Shown here piece after piece: positions 3,583 through 22,796 of a stretch of 43,837 nucleotides of DNA. The position numbers were made by a program, and so were the translations under genes. This stretch comes from a virus. Positions within the stretch are counted from its first letter, which is position 1; every line of letters begins with the position of its first letter. The stretch lies in the IMG/VR virus record IMGVR_UViG_3300009085_000010, positions 1 through 43,837 of that record, one strand, 5' to 3'. The notes beneath the pieces are model-generated. The model had not been told where the DNA came from. It made no database searches and saw nothing but the letters and a program-made list of their open reading frames with translations.

Positions 3583-3596
3583 TACTTACAGAAGTT

Positions 3597-3627
3597 AAAA
3601 AGGTAAAGAAATCTTTACCTTTTTTTG
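3597..3627 (+). terminator. Rho-independent terminator after the DUF1353 gene
   Basis: A perfect 12-bp stem (3597-3608 with 3613-3624) with loop AAAT is followed by a run of T to 3627. The A/T-rich stem contains AAGGTAAAG. Part of the same word (AAATCTTTACCTTTT) recurs at about 17338-17352 upstream of the Cas12-like gene. Confidence 0.85.
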
Positions 3628-11396: not shown

Positions 11397-11578
11397 TGGA
11401 GGTCCAAGAGCGAGAATACTTAAGCGTTGCAGACGTTTCCAGGGTTTGCGGTGTCTCGAAACAGACGGTTTCAAACTGGCGGCGCCGTGAGATCGGCCCC
11501 CCCTGTCAGAAGATCGGCGGCACGTGGCGATACGAAAAAGCAGCGCTGCATCAGTGGATAGACGATTGGAGTGACTAA
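11396..11578 (+). CDS. Excisionase/MerR-type helix-turn-helix protein
   Basis: 60 aa from ATG at 11396, with GGAGG five bases upstream. Residues 8-35 (YLSVADVSRVCGVSKQTVSN) are a typical winged helix-turn-helix, followed by GPPCQKIGGTWRYEKAALHQ, the wing and dimer helix of AlpA/Xis-like proteins. Probable transcription regulator at the end of the early operon. Its stop codon TAA lies inside the solo IS-end element at 11571-11617, so the original C-terminus may have been altered by that insertion. Confidence 0.75.
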   Translation: MEVQEREYLSVADVSRVCGVSKQTVSNWRRREIGPPCQKIGGTWRYEKAALHQWIDDWSD

Positions 11579-11617
11579 TCCCCCACCTGAAGGTGGCGGG
11601 TCTTCAGCGCATAATGG
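11571..11617 (-). mobile_element. Solo IS200/IS605-type end element (copy 1)
   Basis: On the minus strand it reads CCATTATGCGCTGAAG, then a hairpin CCCGCCACC/GGTGGGGG, then ATTAGTCAC. It matches copy 2 (16381-16421) over 41 bases with one mismatch, in inverted orientation, and the left end of the TnpB element at 22688 over 39 of 40 bases. It combines a left-end sequence with the right-end terminus, so it is either a MITE-like remnant or an end scar. It supplies the stop codon of the HTH gene. Confidence 0.7.
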
Positions 11618-14167: not shown

Positions 14168-15058
14168 CTACAACCCCAATAATATTTTATTTCTAGAAAA
14201 CCAGGTATCTAGAACGACCTTATGAGAATTTTTAATTGCTTCAAACATGCTTATATCATTAGACTTAGCCAATGGGGAATCAATATCCAAACTGAAAAAT
14301 ATTATTTTAGAACTTGATAACAAGGTGGGCCTTTGCAAGCTTTTACGTTCCGAAAGGATCATCATCATATCTTTGGCGACCCTTTCATCATTGTCGATGC
14401 AGTCGATATCATCAAGAGCGAGAACAGGGACGCTTATAATTTCTGTCATGGTATCGGTATACTTCTGATAAGACTTGGCCCCGGAATACATAGACGATTT
14501 TATGAAATTACTCAGCGCCCGGCATCGAACAAATTTGCCGCTTACTTCTTTGGCTTTGCACCGGTCGTTTAACATGCCCGCCAACAAGCTAGTCTTTCCT
14601 TTGCCGACGTCACCTATTACAGCAAAAATATCTTGGTTATTTATCTTTCCTTGGCTCCAAAGCTTTGCATTCTTAAAACCATCTGGTTCAGTTAAAAGAT
14701 CCAAATCCCATGCACCATTTTTATTTTGGCATAGCTCTAAAAATTTGAAGTATTGAAATTTTTTGTCAATATCCCTGACAGGGTCAAAAGCTGGTATCAT
14801 GTCCTGTATCTCTTCCAATTCTATTAATATATCTTTCCTTGATACATCCTTTATTGCTACATTATGCCAATAGTTCATAAACTTATCCATGCTTAAATAT
14901 TTAAAATTATCATCTATGTCAATTTTGAATTTCAGCTCCAACATACTGCCGCCTGCACAAGAGCAGACAATAGCCACAGCTCTAACATTCCAATCTGGAA
15001 GAATTACGCCTTTGCCGTAACACTTCGGGCACCCAGGTATACCTCGGATAGGTTCCAC
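14168..15058 (-). CDS. DnaC-like AAA+ ATPase, putative helicase loader
   Basis: 296 aa from GTG at 15056-15058, overlapping the stop of the initiator gene (TAGTG). Likely loads the host replicative helicase at the phage origin. Residues 10-34 hold a zinc-ribbon-like start (CPKCYGKGV and VCSCAGG), as in several phage DnaC-type loaders. Walker A is IGDVGKGKTSLLAG (about 148-161) and Walker B VLALDDID (about 208-215); arginine-finger sensor region follows near SERKSLQRPTLLSS. Coding DNA is notably A/T-rich. No phage helicase is present, which fits use of the host one. Confidence 0.78.
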   Translation of the reverse strand: MEPIRGIPGCPKCYGKGVILPDWNVRAVAIVCSCAGGSMLELKFKIDIDDNFKYLSMDKFMNYWHNVAIKDVSRKDILIELEEIQDMIPAFDPVRDIDKKFQYFKFLELCQNKNGAWDLDLLTEPDGFKNAKLWSQGKINNQDIFAVIGDVGKGKTSLLAGMLNDRCKAKEVSGKFVRCRALSNFIKSSMYSGAKSYQKYTDTMTEIISVPVLALDDIDCIDNDERVAKDMMMILSERKSLQRPTLLSSSKIIFFSLDIDSPLAKSNDISMFEAIKNSHKVVLDTWFSRNKILLGL

Positions 15059-16167
15059 TATTCACCTCTACCCGATTCTAGCCTTTTTGCTTCGGTTTTA
15101 CGGAGATTTTCTTGTTCCATTAGGTGAAAACGCTCTAGTGATTTTTTGAGATCTAGCTCAATTTCATCTCTATTCTCCCAGGTAAGTCTAACCCCTATAA
15201 GTTTGGCATACCGTTCCAGCGGATCTTGCAGTCTGATTTTTTCTTCTTCTTCGCGTTTAGCCAATGCCTCAGAAACCTTGTCCGCCAAAAGTATTTTCTT
15301 TTTTGGCTTGTCGAGATAGCGGTAGAAAAGCTTGATGTTTTCAGGATTTGCTACGAGTTTCTGAAGGTAGGCGCCGTGATTCTTGATGTTCGATTTTGGA
15401 AGCCAAGGTATGGCCAGGTGGACCGCCTTGATGGCCTCCTGGATTCTCCCTTGGGTTTCTGCCAGTTTCACGGCTCCGAAGGCCCCAGGGCGAGAGGTGC
15501 CGTTTTCGATGATCAACTGGGAAAGGTCTCTGGCTTCCTGGCTGAGTGGCTGCTGCTTCGGTTTTGGTGCTGGCTTTGTTGCTGCTGGCTTTGGTGCCGG
15601 CTCTTTTTTCTTTTCTTCTTTGTTTGCAATTTTTACAATTTCATCAACCCTCGGCTCTGCCGGTGGGGTTGGTTGCAGGGTGGTGGGTGGTTCAGTGTGG
15701 CCTTCGGAGTCAACCTGGTCCGGGTAGGGTACCCTTTCTAGTTCTTTAAGAACTAAGGAGTGTGCAAGCCCTTGCGTTCGGAAAAGTCCGAATTCACCCT
15801 TTTCAAAGTTTGACCATAATGGTGCATCGGGTCCCAAAACGTAAACCGCAGCCTTGCGTCTGGCCCGGTTGTGATCCGTAAGGCGAGAAAACGCACCCTT
15901 CAAGGTGCCCTCTTTGAGCCAGTGCTGAACACTGCGCAGATTCAGATCAAACTCTTTAGCGAGCTGGTGAGCAGTGTAACTCCTGGTCCTGTCGTCCTCT
16001 TTGATCCAAAAGAGAATGGCGTCTATAAATTTTTCTTTAATGCATTTTTCACTTCGCCATCTTGCGATAGCTGCCAAATGCATGGCGTCTCTCTTATAAT
16101 ATGGAGAGTGGCAAAAATTTCCTGTTGTAACAGAAGGAAGATTGGTAGAATCTATTTTTATTGGCAT
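15058..16167 (-). CDS. Replication initiator-like protein with N-terminal winged helix
   Basis: 369 aa. Residues 45-100 (IDAILFWIKEDDRTRSYTAH, then QLAKEFDLNLRSVQHWLKEG) form a helix-turn-helix; residues 150-210 are a Pro/Lys-rich linker (PAPKPAATKPAPKPKQQP); residues 215-290 resemble a DnaD-like or O-protein-like helical module (LAETQGRIQEAIKAVHLAIP, NIKNHGAYLQKLVANP). The pairing with a DnaC-like gene is the classic O/P arrangement, so an origin-binding and loader-recruiting role is likely. The origin may lie in or near this gene; I see no iterated A/T box to prove it. Confidence 0.65.
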   Translation of the reverse strand: MPIKIDSTNLPSVTTGNFCHSPYYKRDAMHLAAIARWRSEKCIKEKFIDAILFWIKEDDRTRSYTAHQLAKEFDLNLRSVQHWLKEGTLKGAFSRLTDHNRARRKAAVYVLGPDAPLWSNFEKGEFGLFRTQGLAHSLVLKELERVPYPDQVDSEGHTEPPTTLQPTPPAEPRVDEIVKIANKEEKKKEPAPKPAATKPAPKPKQQPLSQEARDLSQLIIENGTSRPGAFGAVKLAETQGRIQEAIKAVHLAIPWLPKSNIKNHGAYLQKLVANPENIKLFYRYLDKPKKKILLADKVSEALAKREEEEKIRLQDPLERYAKLIGVRLTWENRDEIELDLKKSLERFHLMEQENLRKTEAKRLESGRGE

Positions 16168-16189
16168 CGCTATTATGCCTGAAAGAATG

Positions 16190-16219
16190 GAAGCCTTGAC
16201 GCGAGAACGTCAAGGCTTC
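16190..16219 (+). terminator. Perfect 12-bp hairpin upstream of the initiator gene
   Basis: GAAGCCTTGACG (16190-16201) pairs perfectly with CGTCAAGGCTTC (16208-16219) around CGAGAA. On the plus strand AGAAGTTTTT follows, so it could be a terminator for a rightward transcript. On the minus strand it forms a stem just 23 bases before the initiator start and could control that message. Strand assignment is uncertain. Confidence 0.5.
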
Positions 16220-16294
16220 AGAAGTTTTTGGGGGTTCGTACAGAAACATCCTTCGAGTCTGATCGCCCAATCCAAAAGTGCAACCAAAAATCCA

Positions 16295-16317
16295 CTGCCC
16301 CCGGGCAGTTTTTTTTT
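16295..16317 (+). terminator. Rho-independent terminator facing right
   Basis: CTGCCC and GGGCAG pair around a two-base loop and are followed by nine T (16309-16317). No plus-strand gene lies directly upstream, so it would end an antisense or unannotated transcript. It could also act weakly in the other direction. Confidence 0.6.
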
Positions 16318-16341
16318 GCCTAGAGAAATAAGGCAAACACG

Positions 16342-16360
16342 TGATGACTCTGAGTGATCA
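16342..16360. promoter_or_regulatory. Operator-like dyad
   Basis: TGATGACTCTGAGTGATCA: TGAT/ATCA and ACTC/GAGT are symmetrical around the central T, with a matched G spacer on each side. It lies about 180 bases upstream of the initiator gene and 24 bases from the solo IS-end element. A possible binding site for one of the HTH regulators. Confidence 0.3.
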
Positions 16361-16380
16361 TTACCGAAGATTGATGAATC

Positions 16381-16421
16381 TGCGCTGAAGGCCCGCCACC
16401 TTCAGGTGGGGGATTAGTCAC
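16381..16421 (+). mobile_element. Solo IS200/IS605-type end element (copy 2)
   Basis: TGCGCTGAAGG, a hairpin CCGCCACC/GGTGGGGG, and ATTAGTCAC. It matches copy 1 (11571-11611) in 40 of 41 bases in the opposite orientation, so the two copies bracket the 4.8-kb replication block as inverted repeats. No transposase gene is attached. Confidence 0.7.
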
Positions 16422-16467
16422 GACTCAGGCAAGAGGCAAGCAAGGTGCTGCAAAGCCCCTTGTTTTT

Positions 16468-16476
16468 TGGTATACT
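16468..16476 (+). promoter_or_regulatory. Extended -10 promoter for a small RNA
   Basis: TGGTATACT is an extended -10 (TGn then TATACT, one mismatch to consensus). A clear -35 is not seen, as is usual for extended -10 sites. Transcription would begin near 16483. Confidence 0.5.
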
Positions 16477-16482
16477 GAAAAA

Positions 16483-16553
16483 GCTTTCCAGTGTGCGACG
16501 TCCGCGGCGTCTTAGCTGGTAAACAAAAGGCCCTCCAAAAAGGGCCTTTTTTT
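16483..16553 (+). ncRNA. Candidate structured small RNA, about 71 nt
   Basis: The segment has an extended -10 promoter just upstream and a strong terminator at its end. Inside, CCAG (16488-16491) pairs with CTGG (16516-16519), and GACG (16497-16500) pairs with CGTC (16508-16511), forming a stem-loop. No open reading frame with a ribosome site is present. It lies on the same strand as the Cas12-like gene and array 1 kb downstream. I found no convincing complementarity to the CRISPR repeat, so a tracrRNA role is not supported. Targets unknown. Confidence 0.5.
16526..16553 (+). terminator. Strong rho-independent terminator of the small RNA
   Basis: AAAGGCCCT (16526-16534) pairs with AGGGCCTTT (16541-16549); seven T run from 16547 to 16553. 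The opposite strand also has a T-rich tail, so it may be bidirectional. Confidence 0.9.
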
Positions 16554-16610
16554 GTTATCCTTCCCTTGCAAGATGGCCCCGGAATGGTTTCACCCGGTCA
16601 GCCTGCGCAT

Positions 16611-16637
16611 AAACAAAGGGCTCCAAAAAGGAGCCCC
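16611..16637 (-). terminator. Terminator after the Ig-like gene (minus strand)
   Basis: GGGCTCC (16618-16624) and GGAGCCC (16630-16636) pair around five A; on the minus strand TTTGTTT follows. It ends the transcript of the minus-strand gene at 16704-17105. Confidence 0.8.
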
Positions 16638-16703
16638 TCGCAAACTCTTGTATCAGGTTCGTGTTGTGTCACCGTGTCAACCCGATGGCGACCGGCCCAA
16701 AAA

Positions 16704-17105
16704 TTATACCTTGGGTGCCGGGTTTGGAACAGGGGGAACCGGGGGTGTAGAAGGGAGTGTGGGAGTCCCGAACTCAATCTTGATCCCTGTGGCAAAAGAG
16801 GTTGTAACGTTCACAACCTGAAGCGCTGAAACCGTTGACCCGTCGGGATTGATTGCCGAGACGGTCAGATTCGCGGTTCCCACGGGACCGACAGAGGAAA
16901 TCACGCCGGTAATGGAAGACACTGTAACGCCAGGCTCGGGCACGTGCTCAAGCTTAACAGTGGCGATATTGGTGTTATCAATCACAACGGTCGGATAAGT
17001 TACGTTCGTGGGATTCCCGAGGACATCCAGGAAAGTAGCGGTAAAAGGTACAACCATTGTATTAGGCAGGTTGTAGGGGAGGAGTGGTTCTTGAACCTTT
17101 ATCAT
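16704..17105 (-). CDS. Ig-like (Big-type) domain protein, putative virion decoration or adhesion protein
   Basis: 133 aa from ATG at 17103-17105, where GGAGG stands four bases upstream. A longer form starting at 17252 would add a basic, His-rich N-terminus (SHHHHPHHAH) with a weaker ribosome site. The core shows VPFTATFLDVLGNPTNVTYP, IATVKLEHV, ITGVISSVGPVGTANLTVSA and NPDGSTVSALQVVNV, the strand pattern of bacterial Ig-like domains on phage surfaces. The C-terminus is Pro-rich (STPPVPPVPNPAPKV). It is a single minus-strand gene between the small RNA and the CRISPR locus, so not in the virion operon. Confidence 0.65.
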   Translation of the reverse strand: MIKVQEPLLPYNLPNTMVVPFTATFLDVLGNPTNVTYPTVVIDNTNIATVKLEHVPEPGVTVSSITGVISSVGPVGTANLTVSAINPDGSTVSALQVVNVTTSFATGIKIEFGTPTLPSTPPVPPVPNPAPKV

Positions 17106-17370
17106 AATGCCTCCATGGGCATGGTGTGGGTGGTGGTGGTGACTATGGCACGGGTTTTTGGGGAAGGCGTTGAAAAACCTTACCTCAATAAATACCGCGT
17201 CATGTCTTGTTATTGTTGCCTTCTTCTTGTATAAATCAGCGTTTTTTTTCATATCTGATCCATTATTTTCAACTTAAGGCCACCTCATCCTACCGCCGCG
17301 CCCAGCAGGGTCAAGTAATGTTTTATTAAAAGTAAAAAAATCTTTACCTTTTGAATTGCAGCTAAAAACC

Positions 17371-19249: not shown

Positions 19250-19286
19250 TCTACTCTGTTGGATAATCCCAGTCACGGCCCCGCTT
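19250..19286 (+). other. 37-bp copy of CRISPR spacer 1 outside the array
   Basis: Identical to 19451-19487 (spacer 1) over all 37 bases. The bases on either side differ at once (G instead of C before; A instead of G after). So the match is exactly one spacer long. 5' flank is GGGGTAGAG, 3' flank ACGGAAAA. It is either a self-protospacer in the array leader region or a stand-alone guide behind an omega-RNA-like scaffold. Confidence 0.95.
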
Positions 19287-19414: not shown

Positions 19415-20470
19415 GTGCAAGTGGTTCCAACAGGCTGGACGTGGCTGCACTCTACTCTGTTGGATAATCCCAGTCACGGCCCCGCTTGTGCATGTGGTTC
19501 CAACAGGCTGGACGTGACTGCACGCCTGAACCTGGTGGAAGCCTGGATTTTAAGAGAAGTGCAAGTGGTTCCGACAGGATGGATGTGATTGCACGCAGCG
19601 CCACGGGCCGCTGGACCACAATCTGAACTGGCAGTGCGAATGGTTCCGGATGACTGGACGAGGCTGCACGGAAGTAGTGCGTTCACCACTTCGGCCACCG
19701 CCGGAGGGTGCAAGTGGTTCCGGATGACTGGACGTGATTGCACGTCGTAACCATCTACGCCAGGTGAAGGCCTCCGCCAAGTGCAAGTGGTTCCAATGGG
19801 CTGGATGTGACTGCACCACGCCTACCTCAGCCAGTCGAGCAGCCAGGCACCGCCCAGTGCATGTGGTTCCGGAGGGCTGGATGTGACTGCACGAGGCATT
19901 CCCGCTGATAAAAGAGCAAGCCAGGGGGGTGCATGTGGTTCCGGAGGGCTGGATGTGATTGCACCTGCAGCCCCACTGTCCGTGGCTGTGGAACTCGGGC
20001 GTGCAAGTGGTTCCGAACGGCTGGATGTGATTGCACACTCGTTGGATTGAAATTGACTTGATTTCAATCCAAGTGCATGTGGTTCCGACGCTGGATGTGA
20101 CTGCACAAAGCTTTTGGCGAAATCAAGGGTGTGACGCCTCGGTGTGCAAGTGGTTCCGAACGGCTGGATGTGACTGCACTCTTGAGCGCGATCGTTTAGG
20201 ACCTCCGGCAAATCGGGTGCATGTGGTTCCGGAGGGCTGGATGTGACTGCACCAAGTAGCTTTGCCACTGAGTATTGAACTTCCCCAGATGTGAAAGTGG
20301 TTCCGAAGGGCTGGATGTGACTGCACCGAGTGCCAGCCGCCGTGTCTGCGCCTGTGCAAGTGGTTCCGAACGGCTGGACGTGATTGCACGTCCTTGATCC
20401 TCCCACGAACCTTCGCGAGGGTTCGCGAGGGTTCGCGCGCATAGGGTTCCGACGCTGGACGTGACCACAC
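19415..20470 (+). CRISPR. CRISPR array, 15 repeats and 14 spacers
   Basis: Repeats are 36 bp: GTGCAWGTGGTTCC, six variable bases, then CTGGAYGTGAYTGCAC. The ends GTGCA/TGCAC are complementary. Starts: 19415, 19488, 19559, 19634, 19708, 19781, 19857, 19929, 20001, 20073 (34 bp), 20144, 20217, 20291, 20354, 20437 (34 bp, degenerate). Spacers are 37, 35, 39, 38, 37, 40, 36, 36, 36, 37, 37, 38, 27 and 47 bp, all different. The variable six bases (AACAGG, GACAGG, GGATGA, AATGGG, GGAGGG, GAACGG, GAAGGG) fall in the predicted loop between TCC and GGA. No cas1, cas2 or processing nuclease is encoded in the window. Spacer 1 matches 19250-19286. Spacer 9 (20037-20072) is a perfect inverted repeat. Orientation is taken from gene direction and terminal degeneracy. 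Confidence 0.92.
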
Positions 20471-20609
20471 GAAGCCAACGATTAGTCTGGAAGTGTCGGC
20501 ACTGATCGAGAAGAAAAAACCCTTGCAATCGTTGCGTAATTCATGGTATTCCGCGATGTTTTCCGCAATTTAACCGCATTTCTAAATTGTTCCACGCCGT
20601 TTCGCTAGA
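20471..20609. other. Intergenic segment beyond the array, no feature recognised
   Basis: Between the last repeat and the terminator of the tail-spike gene. I see no reading frame with a ribosome site and no hairpin of note. Confidence 0.5.
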
Positions 20610-22671: not shown

Positions 22672-22747
22672 GATAAACCCCTTTTTACCATTATGCGCTG
22701 AAGTCCCGCCACCTTCAGGTGGGGGATGAAAGCGTGCTTTTCGGTGG

Positions 22748-22776: not shown

Positions 22777-22796
22777 GAAATACATGGAGCTTGATT

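Follow-up and report, generated by a model that had tools for sequence, protein, structure and literature searches.

The window analysed here, 43,837 nucleotides of IMG/VR record IMGVR_UViG_3300009085_000010, looks like a complete phage genome and carries direct terminal repeats of 123 bp. The minus strand carries the late genes, for terminase, portal, capsid and tail, whose end lies at about 20650 or at 16704. Also on this strand, beginning at 16167, is the replication operon, recognized from its DnaC-like loader; its first gene encodes a 369-aa protein, for which we infer a replication role from its position beside the loader, and the loader gene follows. A candidate small transcription unit occupies the plus strand in the gap between the late operon's end and the replication operon's start, and is directed away from the latter. 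One close relative was found, L004 (IMGVR_UViG_3300031772_000136 in IMG/VR, a fragment record of 35.6 kb). The terminator scores given below come from our own approximate d'Aubenton-Carafa calculation, in which positive values are terminator-like. The features of the region are:

15058..16167, minus strand: replication-region gene, 369 aa, first in its operon; N-terminal part swapped relative to L004
16294..16317, plus strand: further terminator, upstream of the promoter; score 28.1 in the window phage and in L004
16342..16360, no strand assigned: palindrome TGATGACTCTGAGTGATCA, resembling an operator or origin; two other palindromes at this place in L004
16460..16480, plus strand: candidate promoter, T-rich spacer and extended -10 box (TTGTTTTTTGGTATACTGAAA); 18/21 positions shared with L004 (TTGTTTTTTGGTATTCTAAAA)
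16483..16553, plus strand: predicted small RNA of about 71 nt, folded and noncoding; start predicted 7 nt past the -10 box
16488..16519, plus strand: two-part stem, CCAGU/GCUGG and GACGUC/GGCGUC, formed in the predicted minimum-energy fold
16525..16550, strong on the plus strand and usable also on the minus strand: intrinsic terminator hairpin with a T7 tail; score 35.1
16616..16638, minus strand only: second terminator hairpin; score 22.1 on the minus strand against -37.4 on the plus strand; similar hairpin in L004
17473..19161, plus strand: gene of a 562-aa Cas12f/TnpB-like protein
19415..20475, plus strand: CRISPR array; about 15 repeats, variable and 36 nt long (GTGCAAGTGGTTCCGAACGGCTGGATGTGACTGCAC), and spacers mostly of 35-40 nt

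An earlier note on this DNA had described the candidate as a phage small RNA with an extended -10 promoter, a 71-nt segment containing a two-part stem, a strong terminator and no coding frame, and most of that description holds. The extended -10 box, TGGTATACT, lies at 16468-16476 as stated, and L004 has this promoter at the same place within intergenic DNA that otherwise does not align. The site is absent from the list of a standard promoter scan. Because no -35 box better than 3/6 occurs at 15-19 nt spacing, the promoter claim depends on the extended -10 box. The pairing of such a box with a terminator is not exceptional in itself, since three pairs occur in the window and 0-3 in each of ten shuffled genomes. 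The terminator is a hairpin followed by a T run and in the window is strongest on the plus strand, and the RNA predicted to run from about 16483 to 16553 has the proposed length of 71 nt, with a body of about 40-41 nt between promoter and terminator. The transcript has no credible reading frame: the longest plus-strand ORF (GTG at 16491) requires read-through of the terminator and extends to 16829, and no minus-strand ORF of at least 60 aa lies under 16483-16553. No Rfam family, CRISPR repeat families included, reaches its gathering score for the candidate RNA.

The stem fares less well. Its arms are present (CCAG at 16488-16491 with CTGG at 16516-16519, and GACG at 16497-16500 with CGTC at 16508-16511), but they do not exceed chance. 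The 81 nt around the candidate do fold better than expected (z = -3.6; 0/200 shuffles as good), but this signal comes from the terminator, because the 40-nt body alone gives z = -1.5 and is matched or beaten by 9.2% of shuffles.

L004 is 64% identical overall to the window phage in the first gene of the replication operon, 92% in the loader and 91% in a RecT-like protein. The two phages are syntenic at the locus, but three features of the window are missing from the corresponding interval of L004: the 16704-17252 gene, the CRISPR array and the gene of the dead Cas12/TnpB-like effector. A search of the whole L004 record, a 35.6-kb fragment of that phage, found no effector and no CRISPR repeat. 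Positions 16114-16338 are 81% identical to L004, and positions 16339-16703 are 22-55% identical, with the exception of the promoter element at 16460-16480. That element, TTGTTTTTTGGTATwCTrAAA, lies at the same place in both phages and has an ungapped score of 15, reached by 0/60 shuffled region pairs (best 13), a conservation that is drawn from one comparison between two genomes. The differences fall at tolerant -10 positions and the T, A and final T are kept, leaving L004 with a -10 box of 4/6. Beyond its promoter L004 has a different body and then a hairpin-terminator that scores 7.1, against 35.1 in the window, with a poor T tract (TTTGCAAACTTT). Between the two bodies there is no sequence conservation and no common seed. 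A match of L004 to RsmY in Rfam (21.3 bits, cutoff 57) is limited to the last 37 model positions and is thus taken to be the terminator hairpin alone. The small RNA first proposed is a reasonable reading, as the promoter is kept in position and sequence with a hairpin-terminator after it; the body is not kept. The candidate is a plausible small RNA of a known kind, whose conservation appears to extend no further than the promoter and the presence of a terminator.

Searches of viral, genome, phage and plasmid collections for the proteins and the promoter turned up no relative of the locus beyond L004, and every viral match in the search for relatives was to the contig of L004. A looser form of the 15-base promoter string occurs in at least 120 other viral contigs. 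Among the 120 string-bearing contigs listed, none has a terminator of -12 kcal/mol or lower within 160 nt downstream, and none is a further relative of the locus besides L004's contig. The promoter string alone thus does not imply a unit, although the control bears only on the unit in the window, because L004's own tail would fail the T-run criterion.

The unit sits among other terminators. The hairpin at 16616-16638 ends the transcript of the 16704-17252 gene and stands back to back with the small-RNA terminator; both hairpins work on the minus strand, in the window phage and L004 alike. The predicted terminator at 16294-16317 insulates the candidate unit from plus-strand transcription leaving the replication region. 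The promoter of the replication operon was not located in the window.

The L004 fragment has the promoter without effector or array, which places the candidate in the phage's own control region. The reading tentatively preferred here, to which we give somewhat less than an even chance, is that 16460-16553 on the plus strand is a small transcription unit of that region acting locally; we infer both its transcription and its local mode of action. Host RNA polymerase would start at the extended -10 promoter, near 16483, and stop after about 70 nt at the 16525-16550 terminator; the unit is head-on to any polymerase reading through from the late side. Transcription itself, together with a short RNA complementary to the read-through transcript, would then act locally, and the outcome might be less late-operon read-through into the replication operon, or tuned transcription near the origin.

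This mode of action is modelled on the lambda pO promoter and OOP RNA. The candidate also resembles P22 sar RNA (68/69 nt) in size and in its phage control-region setting; the only Rfam match to sar in the region is below threshold (24.9 bits, cutoff 43, E 0.011) and lies elsewhere, at 16186-16247 on the minus strand. Lambda OOP RNA is 77 nt long (PMC12197685), and pO, a promoter near the replication genes, has been shown to reduce opposing transcription (PMC3985674). The candidate unit likewise appears to have its own promoter and intrinsic terminator and to specify a short RNA (about 71 nt) beside the replication operon and against its direction, as far as a layout can be read from sequence. 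Unlike OOP, which overlaps cII, the candidate RNA has no gene opposite it; Rfam reports no similarity to OOP, and the gene order also differs from that of lambda, with the late operon followed by the replication operon on one strand. As the cII-type overlap is absent, the candidate is not filed as an OOP RNA and the resemblance is one of layout.

Target prediction, named earlier as a check, found in the whole phage genome no partner better than those that shuffled RNAs find, except the RNA's own antisense strand. The best site against gene starts, upstream of the tail spike (-40.4), was rejected as a target; the site is antisense to tnpB and unremarkable genome-wide. A changing body behind a fixed promoter fits local action more easily than it fits a conserved seed acting in trans, and bodies that differ completely are to be expected if the effect comes from transcription as such or from the RNA's action on its own opposite strand. 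Against the preferred reading, the existing minus-strand terminators would leave little read-through to control, and the opposite strand offers no overlapped gene of the kind that cII is for OOP; the want of a -35 box, the poor T tract and 4/6 box of L004 and the reliance on a single pair of genomes count against it as well.

It is unlikely, though deserving of serious attention, that only the conserved DNA matters here, with the promoter-like element being a protein-binding or origin site, the hairpin a minus-strand terminator of the late operon, and no functional small RNA being made. The use of both hairpins on the minus strand in both phages would fit such an arrangement, as would the unconserved body with its chance-level stem and the replication-related palindromes nearby, which differ between the phages. 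It is harder to square with the conserved bases, whose identity and order are those of an extended -10 promoter, and with a terminator that in the window is strongest on the plus strand.

A trans-acting, base-pairing small RNA of the Hfq type, regulating host or phage mRNAs, would also have the size, the strong promoter and terminator and the T7 tail of the candidate. It is nonetheless rather improbable, as the body differs in L004 with no seed in common, no phage mRNA pairs with the RNA better than with shuffled RNAs, and shuffled RNAs find equal partners genome-wide.

The pattern of change between the phages admits a further and distinctly doubtful elaboration. Roughly the N-terminal third of the 369-aa protein (16080-15762, minus strand) has only 33-47% DNA identity to L004, against mostly 70-97% in the flanks, and where the window has one palindrome L004 has two copies of wGTGACGCnnnGCGTCACTT. 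The swapped N-terminal part and the differing palindromes suggest, at the level of sequence, that a DNA-binding specificity was exchanged together with its sites. The RNA body might have been exchanged along with these behind a fixed promoter, making the small RNA part of an exchangeable cassette of replication or immunity specificity, although the membership of the body is speculation. Such a cassette, if real, would set apart phages that are otherwise near-identical.

The earlier note had argued for a regulatory role from the neighboring dead effector, and this argument finds no support here. The 562-aa protein has Cas12u2 as its best PADLOC match (3e-28) and a weak sequence match to Cas12m structures, and by eye its RuvC motifs look inactive (GINPARRF for GIDLG, and LRGRTAGYNI for the DRDHNAAINI of intact TnpB). 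Its gene starts almost 1 kb from the candidate, with an opposite-strand gene between them. Effector, array and candidate do share a stretch of about 4 kb, and the candidate could on that ground be a tracrRNA or other guide component, but this is very improbable. The candidate RNA and neighboring intergenic pieces were compared with the CRISPR repeat in both orientations, and the candidate has no anti-repeat; its duplex has z = +0.2, with 101/200 shuffles as good and a longest exact match of 5 nt. The L004 record, a fragment, has the unit without effector or repeats, and the stretch between effector and array, whose pairing with the repeat beats that of most shuffles (z = -2.7), is a more promising site for such an RNA. 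Still more remote is an RNA anti-CRISPR (Racr), a solitary CRISPR-repeat mimic with its own promoter: solitary repeats in phages often lie directly downstream of a promoter (PMC10651486), but no Rfam family, repeat families included, is at threshold, similarity to the phage's own repeat is only 5 nt, and the body differs in L004.

Since L004 keeps the unit in a region that is without the effector locus, a position next to a dead RNA-guided effector did not imply a functional connection here, and this negative result is the main value of the check. The candidate probably represents a local control transcript of an ordinary kind, separate from the CRISPR-like system of the phage. If transcribed, it would be a further example of a short, terminated RNA in the replication control region of a phage, here from a group whose replication genes are without a named relative.

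The effector locus itself resembles that of cyanophage vB_AphaS-CL131, in which a type V-U2 effector accompanies a CRISPR array whose repeats are 36 nt long, and in which no tracrRNA was recognized (PMC6293099); the likeness, a V-U2-like effector beside an array, concerns this locus and not the small RNA. Searches of the window, L004 and the phage collection gave no target for the spacers, only a duplicate of spacer 1 (37 nt), which is exactly repeated upstream of the array (19250-19286 and 19451-19487, plus strand). Together with the repeat-pairing stretch, the duplicated spacer resembles a guide carried by a scaffold of its own, to judge from the sequence.

Several other elements were seen in passing. 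A hairpin at 16190-16219, just upstream of the replication gene start, is retained in L004, where base pairs have changed on both sides (C-G to T-A and T-A to C-G, by eye); a plus-strand transcript ending at 16294-16317 would be antisense to the start of that gene, and the region of these two hairpins is better conserved than the candidate small RNA. Three near-identical IS605-like end hairpins (GCCCGCCACCTTCAGGTGGGGGATTAGTCAC) occur at 16381-16421 (plus), 11571-11611 (minus) and 22694-22727 (plus). The last is upstream of an intact tnpB at 22791, and the other two are solitary, the one at 16381-16421 sitting between the palindrome and the small-RNA promoter. Similar palindromic stretches, AAAAGGTAAAGAAATCTTTACCTTTT, are found at 3595-3622 and 17328-17355, one of them upstream of the effector gene.
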